Origin: Terrabacter sp. MAHUQ-38
GTDB lineage: Bacteria > Actinomycetota > Actinomycetes > Actinomycetales > Dermatophilaceae
Direction of reading: 5' to 3'
DNA length: 64,000 bases
Assembly: GCF_014518425.1 (NCBI RefSeq)
Contig: NZ_JACVCU010000002.1
Span: 434,001-498,000 of the forward strand
Within the stretch, counting starts at the first letter, position 1; every line of letters starts with the position of its first letter. This document shows, in pieces, positions 1 to 31,893 of the stretch. A program made the position numbers and the translations under genes. Below the pieces are notes generated by a model, which was not told the origin of the DNA, made no database searches, and saw only the letters and a program-made list of their open reading frames with translations.

Positions 1-2877
<2,877 letters not shown>

Positions 2878-3054
2878 ATCTCTCCTGTTCCTGGTCCGGC
2901 CTGAACAGGAAGTGGCCGAACCGTGGGTTATTGCTGGGGCTTGCTCATCGCTGAGTACTCATCGGGTGCTCATAGCGTTTCAACCCGCCTTGTGGTTCGT
3001 TGACTGATCTCTGACTGTGCCTGCGTGTCCGCTCAGGGACCGCGCCGGCTCTTC

Positions 3055-3360
3055 CTACGGGTGGTGCATGCCGAGGTGTCGTGCGACCGCGCTCACGTCG
3101 ACCGCGGTCTGCAGGCGCAGGGCACGTCCGAACGCCTTGCGGCGCACTGCCAGCTCGAAGCACTCCGGCGTCGGGTGCAGCCATGCACCACGTCCCGGCA
3201 TCCGATGTCGCGGGTCGGGGCGGAGCGTGACCGAGGACGAGTCCTCGGCACCTCTGTCCGTCACCGCGACCACTCGCAGCAGGGCCGACCAGCTATCCGA
3301 TCCTCGGCATCCCACACAGGTGCGGGATGGCTCAGCACGGAGTCCAGTCCGGTCGGCCAC
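3055..3360 (-). CDS. ylxR: YlxR/RpnM family RNA-binding protein (DUF448)
   Basis: This small basic protein lies between nusA and infB, the standard position of YlxR. The family motif RTCVGCR is near residue 17 and [12 protein letters not shown] follows in the middle, then [10 protein letters not shown]. The family is a small RNA-binding protein; binding to RNase P RNA has been reported for some members. The frame is open up to a GTG at 3435 (126 residues), but the extra N-terminus is low complexity and not family-like. The GTG at 3360 (101 residues) fits the family length better, although neither start has a strong ribosome-binding site. It is co-oriented with nusA 113 bases upstream. Confidence 0.88.
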
Positions 3361-3473
3361 AGACGAGTCTACCGCGTCTGGGCCCTTCGCCGCTCCACGG
3401 GGTGCCCGCAGGTGCCTTCCGGCGTGTGCCGGCACGCCTCCGGCCCGCGCCTGAGGACGGTCCTCGTGGGCGC

Positions 3474-4523
3474 TCAGAGGTCGTCGGGCGCGACCTCGAC
3501 GCCACCGCCGGGGGCGCCGGCGGCCTCGGTGTCGGGCCGGATGTCGATGCGCCAGCCAGTGAGCTTGGCCGCGAGGCGGGCGTTCTGGCCCTCCTTGCCG
3601 ATGGCAAGGCTGAGCTGGTAGTCGGGGACGATGACGCGTGCGGTGCGGGCGGCCGCGTCGACGATCTCGACGGACTGCACCCGCGCGGGCGACAGGGCCG
3701 CCGCGACGAACGAGGCAGGATCCTCGGAGTAGTCGACGATGTCGATCTTCTCGCCCCGCAGCTCGGTCATGACGGCGCGGACACGGGCCCCCATCGGGCC
3801 GATGCAGGCGCCCTTGGCGTTGACGCCGGCGACCTTGCTGTGGACCGCGATCTTCGTGCGGTGCCCGGCCTCGCGGGCGAGCGCCGCGATCTCGACGGTG
3901 CCGTCGGCGATCTCGGGGACCTCGAACTTGAACAGGGTGCGCACGAGGTTGGGGTGGGTGCGTGACAGTCCCACCTGGGGGCCCTTGGGACCCCGCTTGA
4001 CGCTGACCACGAAGCAGCGCAGACGCTCGCCGTGTCCGTAGCGCTCCCCCGGCACCTGCTCGGCGAGAGGCAGGATGCCCTCGACCGTGCCGAAGTCGAC
4101 GAGGACGTTCCGGGGGTCCTGGCTCTGCTGGATGATGCCCGAGATGACGTCGCCCTCACGGCCCTTGAAGTCGCCGAGGATCGCCTCGTCCTCGAGGTCG
4201 CGCAGCCGCTGGACGATGACCTGCCGCGCGGTCGAGGCCGCGATGCGGCCGAAGCCCTCCGGCGTGTCGTCGAACTCCGGCCCGGGCTCGCCGCGCTGGG
4301 GGCGTTCGCTCTCGTCGGTCTGCGGGAGCAGCTCGCCCTCCTCGCGGGCCCAGACGATGACGTGCCCGGTCTTGCGGTCGAGCTCGACCCGGGCCAGCCG
4401 CTGGCTGCCGTCGGTGCGGTGGTAGGCCACGAGGAGCGCCTGCTCGATGGCCGGGATCAGCACGTCGAGGCTGATGTCACGCTCCCGTTCGAGGGCGCGC
4501 AGGGCGGCGAGGTCGATGTCCAT
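3474..4523 (-). CDS. nusA: Transcription termination/antitermination factor NusA
   Basis: NusA binds RNA polymerase and nascent RNA and controls pausing, termination and antitermination. The 349-residue product starts [18 protein letters not shown]. It has the N-terminal RNAP-binding domain (to ~120), an S1 domain ([10 protein letters not shown] onward) and two KH domains, with [14 protein letters not shown] and [19 protein letters not shown] as the KH GxxG signatures. It ends after KH2 with a short tail, the short form usual in Actinobacteria, without the E. coli acidic repeats. Its ATG overlaps the rimP TGA by one base (TGATG), so translation is probably coupled. Confidence 0.96.
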
Positions 4524-5098
4524 CAGTGGTCCCCTTCCAGGGCGGACGTCTCGTCCGGGTCGTCGTCGGTGGCGACGGTGTCGTCGCCGGTGTCGGCCCG
4601 CTTGAACTCGACCTGCACGATGCCACGCTGCACGGCATCGAGGTCGAGCGTCACCTGGCGGGCCGGGGTCTTCTTGGTGGCCGGGATCTCGAGAGTGAGC
4701 GAGTCGGAGCCGACGGCCGTGAGGCGGCCGGTCTCGGAACCGGCCTGGTGCGTCACCTCGACCAGGCGTCCGACCTGACGGCGGAACTGGTCGCGGGAGC
4801 TCAGCGGGCGACCGACGCCCGGCGACGACACCTCGAGGACGTACGGGGCCTGGCCCATGACGTCGCCTGCGTCGAGCTCGTCGCTCACCGCGCGGGTGGC
4901 GTCCGCCACGACGTCGAGCGAGAGCGGCGGCACGGCACTCACGTCGTCGGTCACGTCGAGGTCGCTGATGTCGGCGTCGACGAGCACGCGCACGAGACGT
5001 CGCTTGCCGGCAGGAGACACGGAGACGTCCTCGACGACCAGCCCGAGGGGCGCGAGCACCGGCTCGAGCGCCGCTCTGATCTCCTGGGCCGTGCTCAT
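4523..5098 (-). CDS. rimP: Ribosome maturation factor RimP
   Basis: RimP is a 30S assembly factor. The 191-residue product begins [20 protein letters not shown] and carries the family signatures [34 protein letters not shown] and a C-terminal SH3-like part ([16 protein letters not shown]). Its acidic tail is common in actinobacterial RimP. The ATG at 5098 matches the family start. The frame is open to 5161, but that extension is Arg-rich and unlike RimP. It is the first gene of the rimP-nusA-ylxR-infB operon and is divergent from the DUF4439 gene at 5231, leaving a 132-base shared upstream region. Confidence 0.95.
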
Positions 5099-16912: not shown

Positions 16913-18687
16913 GAGCGCTCGACCTCCGCGGTGACCTCGGCCGTGAGGGCGGCGACGACGTCGTCGACGGCGACCTCGCGGCGCTCGCCCGAGCGACGGT
17001 CCTTGATCTCGACCTTGCCCTCGGCGAGGCCGCGGCCGATGACGAGGATCGTCGGTACGCCGATGAGCTCGGAGTCCTTGAACTTGACGCCGGGGCTCAC
17101 GCCCTTGCGGTCGTCGACGAGGACCGACAGGCCCTGGACCTCGAGCTCGCGGGCGATCTCCTCCGCCTTGACCACGAGGGCGTCGTCCTTGCCCGCGGCC
17201 ACGATGTGCACGTCGACCGGCGACAGCTCACGCGGCCAGATGATGCCTGACTCGTCGTGGTTGCCCTCGACGACGCAGGCCACGGCACGCGAGACCCCGA
17301 CGCCGTAGGAGCCCATGACGACCGTCACGAGCTTGCCGTTCTGGTCGAGCACCTTGAGGTCGAGCGCCTCGGCGTACTTCGTGCCGAGCTGGAAGACATG
17401 GCCCATCTCGATGCCGCGGGCACCCGACAGGACGTGGTCGCACTGGGGACAGGGGTCGCCGAAGCGGACCTCAGCGGCCTCGACGGTGCCGTCGCCGGTG
17501 AAGTCGCGACCCACGACGAGGTCGATGACGTGGCGACCCGGCTCATCGGCGCCCGTGACCCAGCGGGTGCCCTGGGCGATGCGCGGGTCGAGCAGGAAGC
17601 GGATGCCCGTCGTGCCCTCGGTGCCGAGCGCGCGGGGGCCGATGTAGCCCTTGGTCAGACCGGGGTGTGCCGCGAAGTCGGCCTCGGTGAACGCCTCGAT
17701 CTCGGCGGGCTCGACCTGCGCGCCGAGGCGCTTCTCGTCCACCTCGCGGTCGCCGGGGAGCCCGATGGCGAGCGGCTCGCGCGTGCCGTCGGGGTGCTTG
17801 AGCATGACGACGACGTTCTTGAGGGTGTCGCCGGCCACCCACGGCCGGTCCTCGCGCGGGAAGCGCTCGTTGAGGTGGTCGACGAGCGTCGCGATCGTCG
17901 GGGTGTCCGGCGTGTCCTCGACGTGCGCGGCGGGAGCGTCCTCCCACCCGACCGGGCTGGGAGCCGGCACCCTGACGGCCTCGACGTTGGCGGCATACCC
18001 GCAGCTCGTGCAGTGGACGTAGGTGTCCTCGCCGACCTCGGCGGTGGCCAGGAACTCCTCGCTCCTGCTCCCGCCCATGGCGCCGGCCATCGCCTCGACG
18101 ATGACGTAGTGGAACCCCAGGCGGTCGAAGATGCGCACGTACGCGTCACGGTGCGCCTGGTAGCTCTTGTCGAGCCCGGCCACGTCGACGTCGAAGGAGT
18201 AGCTGTCCTTCATGACGAACTCGCGACCCCGCAGCACGCCGGCGCGGGGGCGGGCCTCGTCGCGGTACTTCGTCTGGATCTGGTAGATCGACAGCGGCAG
18301 GTCCTTGTAGGAGCTGAAGAGGTCCTTGACCGTGAGGGTGAACATCTCCTCGTGCGTGGGACCCAGCAGGTGGTCGGCGCCCTTGCGGTCCTGCAGGCGG
18401 AAGATGTTGTCGCCGTACTCGGTCCACCGGCCGCTCGCCTCGAAGGGCTCCTTCGGCAGCAGCGCCGGGAACAGCAGCTCCTGCGAGCCGATGGCGTCCA
18501 TCTCCTCTCGGACGATCTTCTCGACGTTGCGCAGCACCCTCAGGCCGAGCGGCAGCCACGTGTAGACACCCGGGCTGACGCGGCGCACGAAGCCCGCGCG
18601 GACGAGCAGCCGGTGGCTCGGGACCTCTGCGTCCGCCGGGTCCTCGCGAAGGGTGCGCAGGAACAGGGACGACATGTGCAGGACCAC
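16909..18687 (-). CDS. proS: Prolyl-tRNA synthetase
   Basis: ProRS charges tRNA-Pro. The 592-residue product has class II motifs: [20 protein letters not shown] near the start (motif 1 region), [27 protein letters not shown] (motif 2, described by its ends) and [18 protein letters not shown] (motif 3). An inserted editing domain lies between motifs 2 and 3, with a C-terminal anticodon-binding domain ([10 protein letters not shown] onward). This is the bacterial type. The GTG at 18687 is preferred because GAGGAG sits just upstream; the ATG at 18675 is an alternative. The long frame extends further 5' but that part is not homologous. Stop overlaps the HAD gene start. Confidence 0.97.
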
Positions 18688-28143: not shown

Positions 28144-29490
28144 TCAGCCGAAGAGCCTGATCGGCTTGACGATGTCGGCGTAGATGAGCAGCACCGACAT
28201 CGTGATGAGCACGAGGGACATGCCGTAGGCGACGGGCAGGCCCTTGGCCACATCGACGAAGCCCGGGTCGGGCCGGTTGCGCAGGCGCGCATAGCCCTTC
28301 TTGACCGCCTCCCAGATCGCACCGGCCACGTGACCGCCGTCGAGGGGCAGGAGCGGGATGAGGTTGAAGACGAAGAGCGCGAGGTTGAGCGAGGCGATGA
28401 GCAGGATCAGCTGCGCGATCTTGACCCAGTTGCCGCCCTCGTCGGCCGGGATGTCGAGGGCCGCCACCTCGCCACCGATGCGCCCGACGCCGACCACGGA
28501 GATGGGGCCGTTGGGGTCGCGCTCCCCGGAGCCGAACGCCGCCTGGACGACGCCCGTCATCTTCTCGGGGATCTTGACGATGATCCCGGCCGTGTCGACG
28601 AGACGGTCCCACACGAACCCGGGCGCCTGCGCGATCGGGGTCTTGACGAGCTCCTGCCCGGGTGTGATGCCGGCGAAGCCCATGGAGGCGAGGACGGGCT
28701 TGCCGTCCCGCGCGACCGGGTCGCCCTCGTCGTCATAGGTGGCGCGCTCGAGGACGGCGGGCTTGATGTCGATCGACACCCGCTGGTCGCCGCGCTGGAC
28801 GACCCACGTCATCTGCCGGCCCTTGCTGTCGCGGATCGCGGCGGCGACCTGGTCCCACTTGGTGACCGGGGTGCCGTCGACCGAGAGAATGCGGTCGCGT
28901 TCCCGGAGACCGGCCGCCGTCGCCGGGGCGGCCGGGTCGCCCGGCTGGCACTTCGGCTGGGGGACCTGGAGCGTCGGGGCCGTGGTCGGCACGCACGGCG
29001 AGAGGGCGCCGACCTTCGGGGCCACCTGGGGCAGGCCGTACAGCGTGATGACACCAGTGATGAGGGCGGCGGCGATGATGAGGTTCATGATCGGGCCGCC
29101 GAGCATGATGATGACCTTCTTGCCCGGGCTCAGCTTGTAGAACACGCGGTCCTCGTCGCCGGGCTTGACCTCCTCCATGGAGTCCGCCCGCGCCTGGTCG
29201 ACCATCTGGCTGAAGCGGCCGGTCGAGAGGGTGCGCAGCTCGCCGGGCTTGTCACCGGGGCGCGGCGGGAGCATGCCGATCATGCGGACGTAGCCGCCGA
29301 GCGGGATCGCCTTGATGCCGTACTCCGTCTCGCCGCGGCGTCGCGACCAGACGGTCGGGCCGAAGCCGACCATGTACTGGGTCACCTTGACCCCGAACTT
29401 CTTGGCCGGCACGAGGTGGCCGATCTCGTGCAGCGCGATGCTCAGCGCCACGCCGACGACGACGACCAGGACCCCTAGGAAGAACAGCAC
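28144..29490 (-). CDS. rseP: Site-2 intramembrane metalloprotease RseP/Rip1 family
   Basis: This M50 protease cuts membrane anchors such as anti-sigma factors. The 448-residue product has the zinc site ALHEIGHLVPAKKFGVKV near the N-terminus, GGYVRMIGM, GGPIMNLIIAAALITGV, a PDZ domain around LRERDRILSVDGTPVTKWDQV, and the third metal ligand in LIPLLPLDGGHV. Four hydrophobic segments are visible. The start is taken as GTG 29490. No ribosome-binding site precedes it and the frame extends upstream into a palindrome, so a leaderless or unusual start is possible. dxr is normally just upstream but here a DUF559 gene intervenes. Confidence 0.93.
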   Translation of the reverse strand: MLFFLGVLVVVVGVALSIALHEIGHLVPAKKFGVKVTQYMVGFGPTVWSRRRGETEYGIKAIPLGGYVRMIGMLPPRPGDKPGELRTLSTGRFSQMVDQARADSMEEVKPGDEDRVFYKLSPGKKVIIMLGGPIMNLIIAAALITGVITLYGLPQVAPKVGALSPCVPTTAPTLQVPQPKCQPGDPAAPATAAGLRERDRILSVDGTPVTKWDQVAAAIRDSKGRQMTWVVQRGDQRVSIDIKPAVLERATYDDEGDPVARDGKPVLASMGFAGITPGQELVKTPIAQAPGFVWDRLVDTAGIIVKIPEKMTGVVQAAFGSGERDPNGPISVVGVGRIGGEVAALDIPADEGGNWVKIAQLILLIASLNLALFVFNLIPLLPLDGGHVAGAIWEAVKKGYARLRNRPDPGFVDVAKGLPVAYGMSLVLITMSVLLIYADIVKPIRLFG

Positions 29491-29520: not shown

Positions 29521-29568
29521 CCCGGTTCGATGTATTGCCGCGGCCTCTGGCCCGCGGCAATACATCGA
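29521..29568. repeat. Palindromic hairpin element, copy 1 (left flank of DUF559 gene)
   Basis: TCGATGTATTGCCGCGG (29527-29543) pairs perfectly over 17 bp with 29552-29568 around an 8-base loop. With its left flank CCCGGT it matches copy 2 (30605 onward) over about 26 bases with one difference (G/T). It lies 31 bases upstream of the rseP start, between divergent rseP and the DUF559 gene. No T-tract is present, and the shared sequence argues for a repeat family, not two unrelated terminators. Confidence 0.85.
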
Positions 29569-29672
29569 CCCACAGGTTCTCGTGGTCCACACCCACCAGG
29601 TGCGGCGCAGGCTTGTCCACAGGTGGTCGGATCAACCCGCACGGGACGCGGAACGCTGGTGACCCTGTCGCC

Positions 29673-30590
29673 ATGGATCGCACTCGACGACGACGGTTGG
29701 CGAGCGACCTGGCAGAGGGCCAAGACGGCGTCGCCTCGCGTTCGCAGCTGGCGTCTCTCGGCATCTCACGTCATGACATCGGCTACGAGGTCGATGGCGG
29801 TCGCTGGCGGCGGTACGGACATCAGACGGTCGCCGTGCACACCGGTCCGCCTTCGGTGCTGGCCCGGTGCTGGGCAGCGGTCTTCGAGACGGGCGCCAGC
29901 ATCGCTGCCATCGACGGGGCGACAGCCCTGCAGCATGCCGGCCTCAAGGGCTACGTCGACGACGACATCCATGTCTCAGCCGTCCACAACCACAACACGA
30001 ACAGGCTCCGGGGAGTCAAGATCCACAAGGCGATTCGACGCGTGACGGGCGAGCTCGTGGAGGCCGGCCTGCCTCGCACGCGCCCCGAGGTGGCCGCGAT
30101 ACGCGCTGCACACTGGGCAGCATCCGATCGACAGGCCGCCCTCATCCTGCTGATGACGGTCCAGCAGCGCCTGACCACTCCGGCGCGACTCGCTGCGGCC
30201 CAGCGGCTCGTGCGCGGACGCACTCGTCGGGCGTTCATCCGCGCGGTGGTTCGTGACATCGCGTTCGGCGTGCAGAGCCTCGGTGAGCTCAACTTCGGTC
30301 GCCTGTGCCGGGCTCGAGGGCTGCCGGAGCCGTCGCGGCAAGTCGTGCGCCAGACGCCGGGTGGGCGCATCTATCTCGACGTCGCCTGGGACGGCTTCGA
30401 CCTCGTCGTCGAGATCGACGGAGCGCAGCACCGCTGGGGCCTCGCCGTCATGAACGACAACCTCCGACAGAACGACGTCGCTCTCTCGGGCGAGCGCGTC
30501 CTCAGGGTCGACATCATCGGGCTTCGCCTCGAGACCGATCGCTTCTTCGAGCAGATCGAGCGCGGTCTTTCACAGCGCCGCGCCGCCTGA
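29673..30590 (+). CDS. AbiEi-type wHTH + DUF559 (Vsr-like nuclease fold) protein
   Basis: The 305-residue protein has an N-terminal winged-helix segment (residues ~18-60, GVASRSQLASLGISRHDI) like the AbiEi antitoxin domain. Its middle is Arg/Ala-rich. The C-terminal DUF559 domain (~205-297) contains GRIYLDVAWDGFDLVVEIDG and RVLRVDIIGL. Asp236, Glu247 and Asp249 fit a PD-(D/E)xK-like metal site, so nuclease activity is possible but unproven. It is opposite in strand to dxr and rseP and splits that conserved set. Nearly identical hairpins flank it. No partner toxin is adjacent. Function is unknown. Confidence 0.85.
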   Translation: MDRTRRRRLASDLAEGQDGVASRSQLASLGISRHDIGYEVDGGRWRRYGHQTVAVHTGPPSVLARCWAAVFETGASIAAIDGATALQHAGLKGYVDDDIHVSAVHNHNTNRLRGVKIHKAIRRVTGELVEAGLPRTRPEVAAIRAAHWAASDRQAALILLMTVQQRLTTPARLAAAQRLVRGRTRRAFIRAVVRDIAFGVQSLGELNFGRLCRARGLPEPSRQVVRQTPGGRIYLDVAWDGFDLVVEIDGAQHRWGLAVMNDNLRQNDVALSGERVLRVDIIGLRLETDRFFEQIERGLSQRRAA

Positions 30591-30604
30591 GCCTGCCCAC
30601 ACCT

Positions 30605-30658
30605 CCCGGTTCGATGTATTTCCGCGGCCCCCAGGCCTCGGAAATACATCGAACCGGG
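30605..30658. repeat. Palindromic hairpin element, copy 2 (right flank of DUF559 gene)
   Basis: CCCGGTTCGATGTATTTCCG (30605-30624) pairs perfectly over 20 bp with 30639-30658 around a 14-base loop. Fifteen bases separate it from the DUF559 stop and 23 bases from the dxr stop, so it can terminate both convergent transcripts. The near-identity to copy 1 marks it as a dispersed repeat. Confidence 0.88.
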
Positions 30659-30681: not shown

Positions 30682-31893
30682 TCAGGTGGCGAGCGTGACG
30701 AGGGCGCCGGCGGTGGCGCGGGCCCAGGCGTCGGCGGCGAGGACGTCATCTAGCGTGAGGTCACGGACCGCGGATGCCGGCTCGGCGGCATACGCGTCGA
30801 TGATCCGCGAGACCGTGTCGACGATCTCGACGAAGCCGAGGCGACCGTCGTGGAAGGCGTCGACGCACACCTCGTTGGCGGCGTTGTAGACGGCCGGCCA
30901 CGTGCCGCCGGCCTCCCCCACGCGACGAGCGAGCGCGACGGCCGGGAAGGCCTCGTCGTCGAGCGGCTCGAAGTCCCACGACTGCGCCTTCGTCCAGTCG
31001 ACGGGCACGTCGGCGTCGGTGACCCGCTCGGGCCAGCTGAGGCCCAGAGCGATGGGCACGAGCATCCGCGGCGGCCCGGCCTGCGCGATCGTCGAGCCGT
31101 CGACGAACTCGACCATCGAGTGGATCATCTGCTGCGGGTGCACGACGACGTCGATGCGGTCGAAGGGGATGTCGAAGAGCAGGTGGGCCTCGATGACCTC
31201 GAGGCCCTTGTTCACGAGGGTGGCCGAGTTCGTCGTGATGACCCGGCCCATCGCGAAGTTCGGGTGCGCGAGGGCCTGCTCCGGGGTGACGTCGGCCAGC
31301 TCGGCCCGCGAACGCCCCCGGAACGGCCCGCCGCTCGCGGTGACGACGAGCCGTCGCACCTCGTCGGCACGCCCGCCGCGGAGGCACTGGGCGATCGCCG
31401 AGTGCTCGGAGTCGACGGGGACGATCTGGCCGGGCGCCGCGAGCGTCTTGACCAGGGGGCCACCGATGATGAGCGACTCCTTGTTGGCGAGCGCAAGCGT
31501 CGTGCCGGCCCGCAGGGCCGCGAGCGTCGGCTCGAGACCGATGGCACCGGTGATTCCGTTGACGACGACGTCCGCCTCGCGTCCGGCGAGCCGAGTGCTC
31601 GCGTCGGCTCCGACGAGCAGCTCCGGGTCGTAGGCCGTCACGCGGGCCTCGTCGGCCGCCCTCGCGATCGCGACGGTGAGCTCGTCCTGGGACCCGCCCG
31701 CCACCGCCACCACGGGGACGCGAAGGGCGACGGCCTGCTCGGCGACGAGGCCGAGGTTGCCGCCGGCAGACAGCCCGGTCACCTCGAAGCGGTCGGGGTT
31801 GCGACGCACCAGGTCGATGGCCTGGGTGCCGATCGAACCGGTCGAGCCGAGCAGGACGATGCGGCGGCGCAGCCGCGCCGGGGTCTCAGTCAC
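30682..31893 (-). CDS. dxr: 1-deoxy-D-xylulose-5-phosphate reductoisomerase
   Basis: Dxr converts DXP to MEP with NADPH. The 403-residue product has the nucleotide loop [32 protein letters not shown], the metal/substrate site [23 protein letters not shown] and [14 protein letters not shown]. Full family length. The ATG start near 31893 is supported by immediate homology. It is the first gene of the split dxr-rseP-ispG series; the DUF559 module lies just downstream. Confidence 0.96.

Follow-up and report, generated by a model that had tools for sequence, protein, structure and literature searches.

The IS200/IS605 elements are single-gene units that end in hairpins. REPs are well-studied repeats of bacteria; as far as the accessible text of the sources goes, the enzyme tied to them belongs to the RAYT (HUH) family, and REPs are stated to number usually more than 100 per genome (PMC2817692). 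CGTC-tagged REPs have stems of 8-9 bp and an unpaired tag, and according to the available part of their description no dedicated transposase had been found for them (Di Nocera 2013, PMC3733652). The word Actinobacteria does not occur in that part of the text, but untagged REP-like repeats in Mycobacterium tuberculosis are mentioned there. REP-like repeats in Actinobacteria are thus already known, and genomes of Actinomycetota are listed in the accessible part of PMC12306157; no description of an association between such hairpins and a DUF559 gene was found in the open-licence literature, within the portions of it that are available. Here we describe a hairpin-gene-hairpin unit that, together with solitary copies of a related hairpin, probably constitutes a REP/RAYT-like repeat system with a PD-(D/E)xK nuclease. 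Cognate palindromes at its borders would give a role to the common DUF559 family, the function of which is unknown, and a DUF559 system would give the REP-like repeats of Actinobacteria an enzyme. If this is true, two unrelated nuclease folds converge on the same kind of genomic repeat.

The window is a stretch of 64,000 nucleotides from Terrabacter sp. MAHUQ-38, the genome of which (G000) comprises 5.16 Mb in 18 contigs. An initial annotation of the window had described two palindromes with a common word around a plus-strand gene, and this was confirmed. The upstream bracket hairpin is located at 29521-29571 (core TCGATGTATTGCCGCGG...CCGCGGCAATACATCGA) and the downstream one at 30605-30658 (core TCGATGTATTTCCGCGG...TCGGAAATACATCGA), while the gene between them (29673-30590, plus strand) encodes a protein of 305 aa combining an AbiEi-like wHTH with a DUF559 (Vsr-like PD-(D/E)xK) part. 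Its neighbours rseP (28144-29490) and dxr (30682-31893), which form the flanking context outside the unit, are both encoded on the minus strand. The upstream hairpin has a perfect 17-bp stem within a 42-nt core, and its 20-nt arms contain one mismatch; in the downstream hairpin, the arms are 25 nt long and contain one mismatch, their outer 20 pairs being perfect. The word common to both hairpins carries a single G/T difference that is compensated inside each of them. A search of the window for the 25-base word (K at the variable base), allowing up to 3 mismatches, returned 3 matches, all in the two hairpins, and none in 100 shuffles. Folding z-scores of the hairpins range from -5.6 to -7.4 on both strands, and no shuffle was equally stable.

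In the whole 5.16-Mb genome, the 17-nt core GGTTCGATGTATTNCCG (up to 2 mismatches) is found only in these two hairpins. Looser searches did reveal further related hairpins elsewhere, four of which were read (L108, L319, L320 and L321); an 18-nt loop stretch of L321 is common with the upstream bracket, on the other strand. A dispersed family of the exact 26-base word was rejected in that form, as the core is confined to the brackets and only the looser hairpin is dispersed.

The winged-helix part of the protein, a candidate hairpin-reading domain, covers aa 11-47 (29703-29813, plus strand). It matches Pfam AbiEi_4 below threshold (16.7 bits, cut-off 25), the best PADLOC AbiEi model reaches an E value of 2e-10, and an AbiEi_4 match at E 0.01 was obtained for 11 of 34 homologues. 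The nuclease part spans about aa 205-299 (30285-30569, plus strand); here the match to Pfam DUF559 (aa 225-297) is likewise sub-threshold (19.5 bits, cut-off 20.6), and the family profile matches structure 3hrl ('Endonuclease-Like Protein') with an E value of 7e-4. Residues E205, P218, D236, E247, G250 and D262 are invariant in all 50 aligned homologues, whereas D249 (46/50) and H253 (47/50) are nearly so; locus L113, which has stop codons inside, was left out of this count. We take the set E205/D236/E247/D262 to be the active-site pattern of DUF559/Vsr-type PD-(D/E)xK enzymes (E...D...ExD/H). An AlphaFold model built from three sequences was poor (mean pLDDT 47), so the assignment of the fold rests on profile matches. 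The core residues expected of DUF559 are present, while nuclease activity itself is inferred from sequence alone. Named homologues of the protein occur in Intrasporangium, with 75% and 57% identity, the former in Intrasporangium chromatireducens.

The N-terminal AbiEi-like winged helix is shared with the AbiE type IV toxin-antitoxin systems. Unlike in those systems, the neighbours are dxr and rseP rather than a toxin gene, a nuclease domain is fused to the winged helix, and hairpins bracket the gene. An AbiE toxin-antitoxin pair was rejected, because no gene for an AbiEii nucleotidyltransferase toxin adjoins. The nuclease core with the DUF559 pattern is in common with solitary Vsr/DUF559 endonucleases such as PRK09767 and Caulobacter VsrA. 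The latter differ in lacking the extra AbiEi-like domain, and the role proposed here is at palindromes and not in short-patch repair; the available main text on Caulobacter VsrA mentions no palindrome or hairpin (PMC12907096).

Matches to the window protein were found in 32 of 58 genomes, its own included, and the family profile matches in 166 of 345 genomes of the class, representing 70 of 127 genera. The initial annotation had suggested examining whether copies of its word also flank other AbiEi-DUF559 genes. Hairpins do flank them, with locus-specific words. A first set of 51 loci consisted of 49 of the 81 matches listed plus two from another search, the remaining listed matches being mostly fragments or weaker; L139 was dropped as too short, leaving 50 loci. 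In 25 of these 50, the upstream and downstream hairpins have a 10-nt arm word in common with at most one mismatch, whereas permuted pairings averaged 4.4 and never exceeded 11 (0/5000 as high). The exact-word version gave 21/50 against a permuted 1.7. An earlier test with exact 8-nt words and a frame-based gene end had given 15/50 (permuted mean 1.3, 0/2000), the figure of 25/50 being that of the mismatch-tolerant test with corrected gene end. Class-wide, a common bracket word was detected at 20 of 28 loci (permuted mean 3.9, maximum 11, 0/5000). These 28 are the best-scoring loci of a long list and not a random draw; two of the original 30 were omitted (L015, which is the window, and L244, already in the first set), and L246 is the same gene as L041. 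Random gene-sized intervals were bracketed in 0 of 1050 cases by exact words and in 11 of 1050 with up to one mismatch. Bracketing and the sharing of a word within a locus are thus observed, and so is the change of word from locus to locus, the brackets carrying such strongly different words as TCGATGTATT, TCGAGGTAT, GACCATCCGTG, CTAAGTACGA, TGCGTCTGCGG, GTCATACG, GCGTCCGAAG and others.

Half of the first set (25/50) missed the strict test. Some pairs among these are visible by eye, and no bracket pair could be seen by eye at L123, L128, L132, L134, L136-L138, L141, L145, L041, L042 and L044. The distance from the upstream hairpin to the start codon is about 100-230 bp in most paired loci, and the second hairpin is mostly located within about 40 bp of the stop codon. 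Where the bracket hairpins are asymmetric (L223, L225, L236, L241, L243 and L308), they are inverted relative to each other; the orientation of the window's own brackets is undecidable, as both hairpins are near-symmetric. The possibility that every DUF559 gene is bracketed was rejected from the window genome itself, in which 0 of 7 other DUF559 loci have brackets; some of these look like similar fusions by eye. At one of its loci (L010, G000:C1, locus 660-699), an 18-bp perfect palindrome precedes another DUF559 gene on one side only.

The stem is held by compensatory changes. In the alignment, 52 cells changed on both sides of the stem versus 20.4 in shuffles (0/500 as high), and slid controls gave 7 to 20 such cells. 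Cell count and covariation score are above the shuffles, and the number of pairs with both-side change is not (9 versus 9.4). By eye, tandem arrays of same-word hairpins occupy both gene flanks at L105 (G003), L133 (G030) and L142 (G035), which recalls the clustered REPs (BIMEs) around some RAYT genes. At L113 (G029:C52), where the homologue contains in-frame stops, the brackets are degenerate too, which gives the impression that inactivation of the gene is followed by decay of its hairpins.

The full protein had no match at E 1e-5 in the plasmid collection. Carriage by phage was met once, on a 7.6-kb fecal scaffold labelled phage (L285, MT837139.1), which may be bacterial rather than phage. 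At 3646-4548 it encodes a 48%-identical homologue that, judged by eye, has GGTGATGCA...TGCATCACC bracket hairpins and a tRNA-like sequence ahead of it. Three viral contigs hold only distant relatives, with 26-31% identity over the nuclease end. At L252, a phage terminase-like ORF (1683-4517) has an intein-like insert by eye, and an ORF at 2449-3270 with a Vsr/DUF559-like end overlaps the terminase-like ORF, as in homing elements.

Words follow the protein. Among pairs of the 25 loci that passed the bracket test, the word is shared by 7 of 8 pairs above 70% protein identity, 10 of 15 at 60-70%, 27 of 57 at 55-60%, 13 of 47 at 50-55%, 3 of 96 at 42-50% and 0 of 77 below 42%. Within the genus of the window, a loose pattern detected 36 hairpins in 8 of 9 genomes (0 with the reversed pattern as control), 13 of them in G006, where 2 are the brackets of its gene. 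A covariance model built from 25 genus hairpins, supplied by 8 of the 9 members and by neither G007 nor any outsider, has hits in all 9 members and in 3 of 25 other genomes, one of which (G011) is hit only at E 0.007. Copy number within the genus ranges from 6 to 50 model rows with both strands counted, which corresponds to some 3 to 25 hairpins. There are 8 model rows (about 4 hairpins) in G002 despite its lack of a close homologue, and 14 in G007, the homologue of which is broken; hairpin number in the genus tracks gene presence only loosely.

Three bracket words, from G027, G025 and f31, were used for prediction tests, these being all that were run. The G027 word is found in 8 hairpins in its own genome, 2 of which are the brackets, and in none of 57 other genomes. 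The G025 word is found in 3 hairpins in G025 (1 being a bracket), in 13 in G015 and in none of 56 others; imperfect brackets with this word at the G015 gene are recognisable only by eye, and the G015 and G025 proteins are 50% identical. The f31 word is present in all 4 f31 genomes given and once in 1 of 26 others. Its distinct places number 7 in G068, 2 in G090, 15 in G108 and 2 in G124; both copies in G090 are its brackets, with no solitary copy by the exact pattern, and those in G124 were counted without inspection of the brackets of its gene. Copies of the three tested words are hence genome-specific. A palindrome present at many unrelated places without any link to such genes would have refuted the initial annotation; instead, for these three words, solitary copies are tied to genomes with a same-word gene.

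Sites of solitary hairpins were compared with their orthologues, using 6 of the 11 solitary hairpin sites of G006 and seven congeners. At the L092 site, recovered in six congeners, four (G002, G004, G007 and G008) have a hairpin-free spacer of 49-52 nt, G005 carries a hairpin with a sequence type of its own, and the stretch in G003 is a different one. At the L098 site, for which seven congeners were available, there is no hairpin in G000, G002 and G007 (spacers of 25-43 nt) nor in G005 (61 nt), a hairpin in G003 and G008, and a decayed one in G004. The hairpin of the L097 site is absent in 3 of 3 recovered congeners, and the L099 word is absent from its site in 6 of 6. At the L095 site, this type of hairpin is found in G002 and G008, the remaining congeners having other or decayed stretches. 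The L101 site holds a hairpin with another word in five congeners, a third word in G002 and no hairpin in G000. Orthologous presence and absence is thus directly observed, whereas the replacement of words at the L101 site is not explained by simple copying and remains unexplained. The latter site is located in G006:C12, at about 17960-18010, its orthologous sites being L165, L175, L176, L178, L185, L189 and L207.

At the dxr-rseP junction, the comparison for an empty site that the initial annotation had called for showed the gene in 0 of 7 readable congeners. One recognisable related hairpin without the gene is present in three of them (G006, G007 and G008), and a decayed or different stretch in G002-G005. 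None of the seven keeps both palindromes, so the finding that would have told against the annotation, gene-free relatives retaining both as plain terminators, was not made. The gene also occurs at the dxr-rseP junction in another genus (L111, G029), which makes loss in the congeners likelier than a recent gain in the window genome. The description of the gene as inserted into dxr-rseP-ispG consequently holds for its position between rseP and dxr, and less well for the implied gain.

The gene occupies a few sites that several genera have in common. One of these accounts for 10 loci and one for 6, two more pairs of loci have a common site, and the loci of one site differ in their words. In the group of 10, the gene is reversed relative to its neighbours in three loci (L115, L120 and L121) as compared to L006 and six others; in the group of 6, it is reversed in L113 and L118 versus L103, L105, L107 and L122. 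Likewise, L132 and L133 occupy the same site in opposite orientations. Both orientations at one site are therefore observed, which means that the unit inverts between its hairpins or that these sites have been filled more than once; both fit a hairpin-directed element. In G008, the only congener readable there, the L093 site is empty and has retained no TCGATG hairpin. It is for the hairpins that coming and going is most evident. No genome was seen to hold the whole unit in two near-identical copies, although no systematic search was made, and recent movement of the whole unit is hence not shown. Neither a target-site duplication nor a fixed insertion boundary has been established.

Comparison with REPs of the RAYT type (GTAG REPs, REPtrons) reveals several likenesses. 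A single gene lies between two palindromes, inverted where this can be judged (RAYT features as given in the accessible part of PMC2817692), non-autonomous copies of the same word are dispersed, the word changes along with the enzyme, and the gene resides at sites common to several genera. On the other hand, the enzyme here is an AbiEi-like/DUF559 PD-(D/E)xK protein and not a Y1 HUH transposase (Pfam01797), and copy number in the genus is low. The RAYT domain Y1_Tnp had no match in the window protein and none in the 34 genomes searched, with 5 of 14 control genomes positive; mobilisation by RAYT was accordingly rejected for these 34 genomes. No GT(A/G)G head was seen at the foot of the hairpins, which were read by eye and left uncounted. 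As in IS200/IS605, hairpins end a single-gene unit, but there is no Y1 HUH transposase and each end is a long, nearly perfect, gene-specific palindrome.

The REP/RAYT-like unit with a different enzyme that the initial annotation had envisaged is supported by bracketing across the family, by locus-specific words and by the solitary copies tied to them; binding and cleavage are only inferred, as are movement by the protein and the manner of copying. In the mechanism that we propose, the AbiEi-like wHTH would read DNA and the Vsr/DUF559-type PD-(D/E)xK nuclease would cut it. The protein would recognise its own palindrome, most likely when replication exposes it as a hairpin or cruciform, and nick or cut it, after which repair or replication might copy the hairpin to intergenic positions elsewhere, now and then taking along the gene enclosed by two hairpins. 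The gene itself occupies a few sites common to several genera, in either orientation, and is at times lost, with one hairpin or nothing left behind.

Several other explanations have to be weighed against this mechanism. AbiEi-type antitoxins bind inverted repeats at their promoters, and the palindromes might merely be operators through which the AbiEi-like wHTH regulates its own gene, the solitary copies forming its regulon without anything moving. The presence of an AbiEi-type domain and the location of the upstream hairpin ahead of the start codon in most paired loci fit such a role. That the second hairpin is found so close to the stop codon does not, nor does the coming and going of solitary copies at orthologous sites, several of which start just after a TGA (by eye), and a nuclease domain with its invariant residues has been retained; we therefore consider regulation alone improbable. 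Vsr-like nucleases are used by homing elements, and the nuclease could instead cut an unoccupied hairpin, the gene being copied in by repair and the hairpin target duplicated or regenerated at each end. The single hairpin without gene at dxr-rseP in three congeners, the occupation of the same few sites in many genera and in both orientations, and the DUF559-like ORF of L252 that overlaps an intein-like stretch speak for homing. It does not by itself explain dispersed solitary hairpins, however, and the L093 site of G008 is empty without a TCGATG hairpin, so that homing, too, seems to us an unlikely account.

The hairpins could also be spread by another, unidentified enzyme, in which case the DUF559 gene would be a mere passenger, or would serve the host as a defence by trimming or silencing the hairpins. 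As no movement has been seen and only one transposase family (Y1_Tnp) was excluded, this cannot be ruled out, but it is difficult to reconcile with the joint change of word and protein, with the genome-by-genome specificity of the three tested words and with the fact that this one protein family is bracketed in several families of the class, and we judge it quite unlikely. Finally, the stable intergenic stem-loops might simply be bidirectional terminators or insulators that flank a solitary gene. Neither window hairpin showed a terminator-like site, in which a T run accompanies the stem, the two hairpins of one locus share a word that is absent from most other loci, and hairpins are present or absent between congeners. 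Given the missing T run and the gene-specific words, this scarcely credible explanation was rejected.

To what extent hairpins accompany DUF559 genes of the plain type was assessed in a plasmid collection, in which 46 records matched, 25 were fetched and 24 were used; some of these loci are related, three coming from one Sphingomonas strain and two from Sinorhizobium. The same exact 8-nt hairpin word is present on both sides at 8 of 24 loci (permuted mean 2.0, maximum 6, 0/5000), and the 9-nt setting gives 11 of 24 (permuted mean 3.5, maximum 9, 0/5000). With one mismatch allowed, the counts are not clearly above permutation (573 and 87 of 5000), a contrast that is lost because the words resemble each other across taxa. 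Control genes in three stretches of the same replicons were bracketed in 0/117 and 1/117 cases, and palindromes are infrequent in these stretches, with counts of 2, 2 and 5 in 49 kb. Hairpins are one-sided or unlike each other at the plain DUF559 loci of E. coli (L303), Shinella (L297) and Novosphingobium (L301), and the two brackets of Deinococcus psychrotolerans are identical in inverted orientation down to their feet.

Similar to CGTC REPs, the hairpins described here are short intergenic palindromes, and CGTC stands at the base of the stem in the class-wide bracket words f31, f38, f39 and f45. The two differ in that the window hairpin has no CGTC tag, stems here mostly exceed those of CGTC REPs in length, and CGTC, which is unpaired in the latter, forms part of the paired stem in the actinobacterial words. 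At the plain DUF559 loci of Sinorhizobium, CGTC or TGTC is found at the foot of 6 of 6 CCCTCTCCCC bracket hairpins. A loose pattern for a CGTC-type foot matches 9 of 48 hairpins over 15 plain DUF559 loci, and beyond Sinorhizobium the foot is limited to single hairpins at three other loci. DUF559 is thereby a candidate for part of the missing CGTC-REP enzyme, a lead and not a demonstration. With such an enzyme, a single purified protein and a single hairpin oligonucleotide would suffice for a direct test of the question of the CGTC partner. Whether DUF559/Vsr-fold nucleases, with or without an AbiEi-like domain, form a second, unrelated enzyme class that generates and spreads REP-like palindromes across several phyla, each with its own palindrome, and that includes the unknown partner of some CGTC-tagged REPs, is a proposition for which we see the case as evenly balanced. 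Plasmid counts from PLSDB need care, since some of its records are of chromosome size (NZ_CP141089.1, NZ_OL790696.1 and NZ_CP119142.1, of 4.9, 4.8 and 2.2 Mb, respectively). On plasmids of Sphingomonas parapaucimobilis, plain DUF559 genes lie between sufB and sufC and between the genes for transhydrogenase subunits (L295 and L309).
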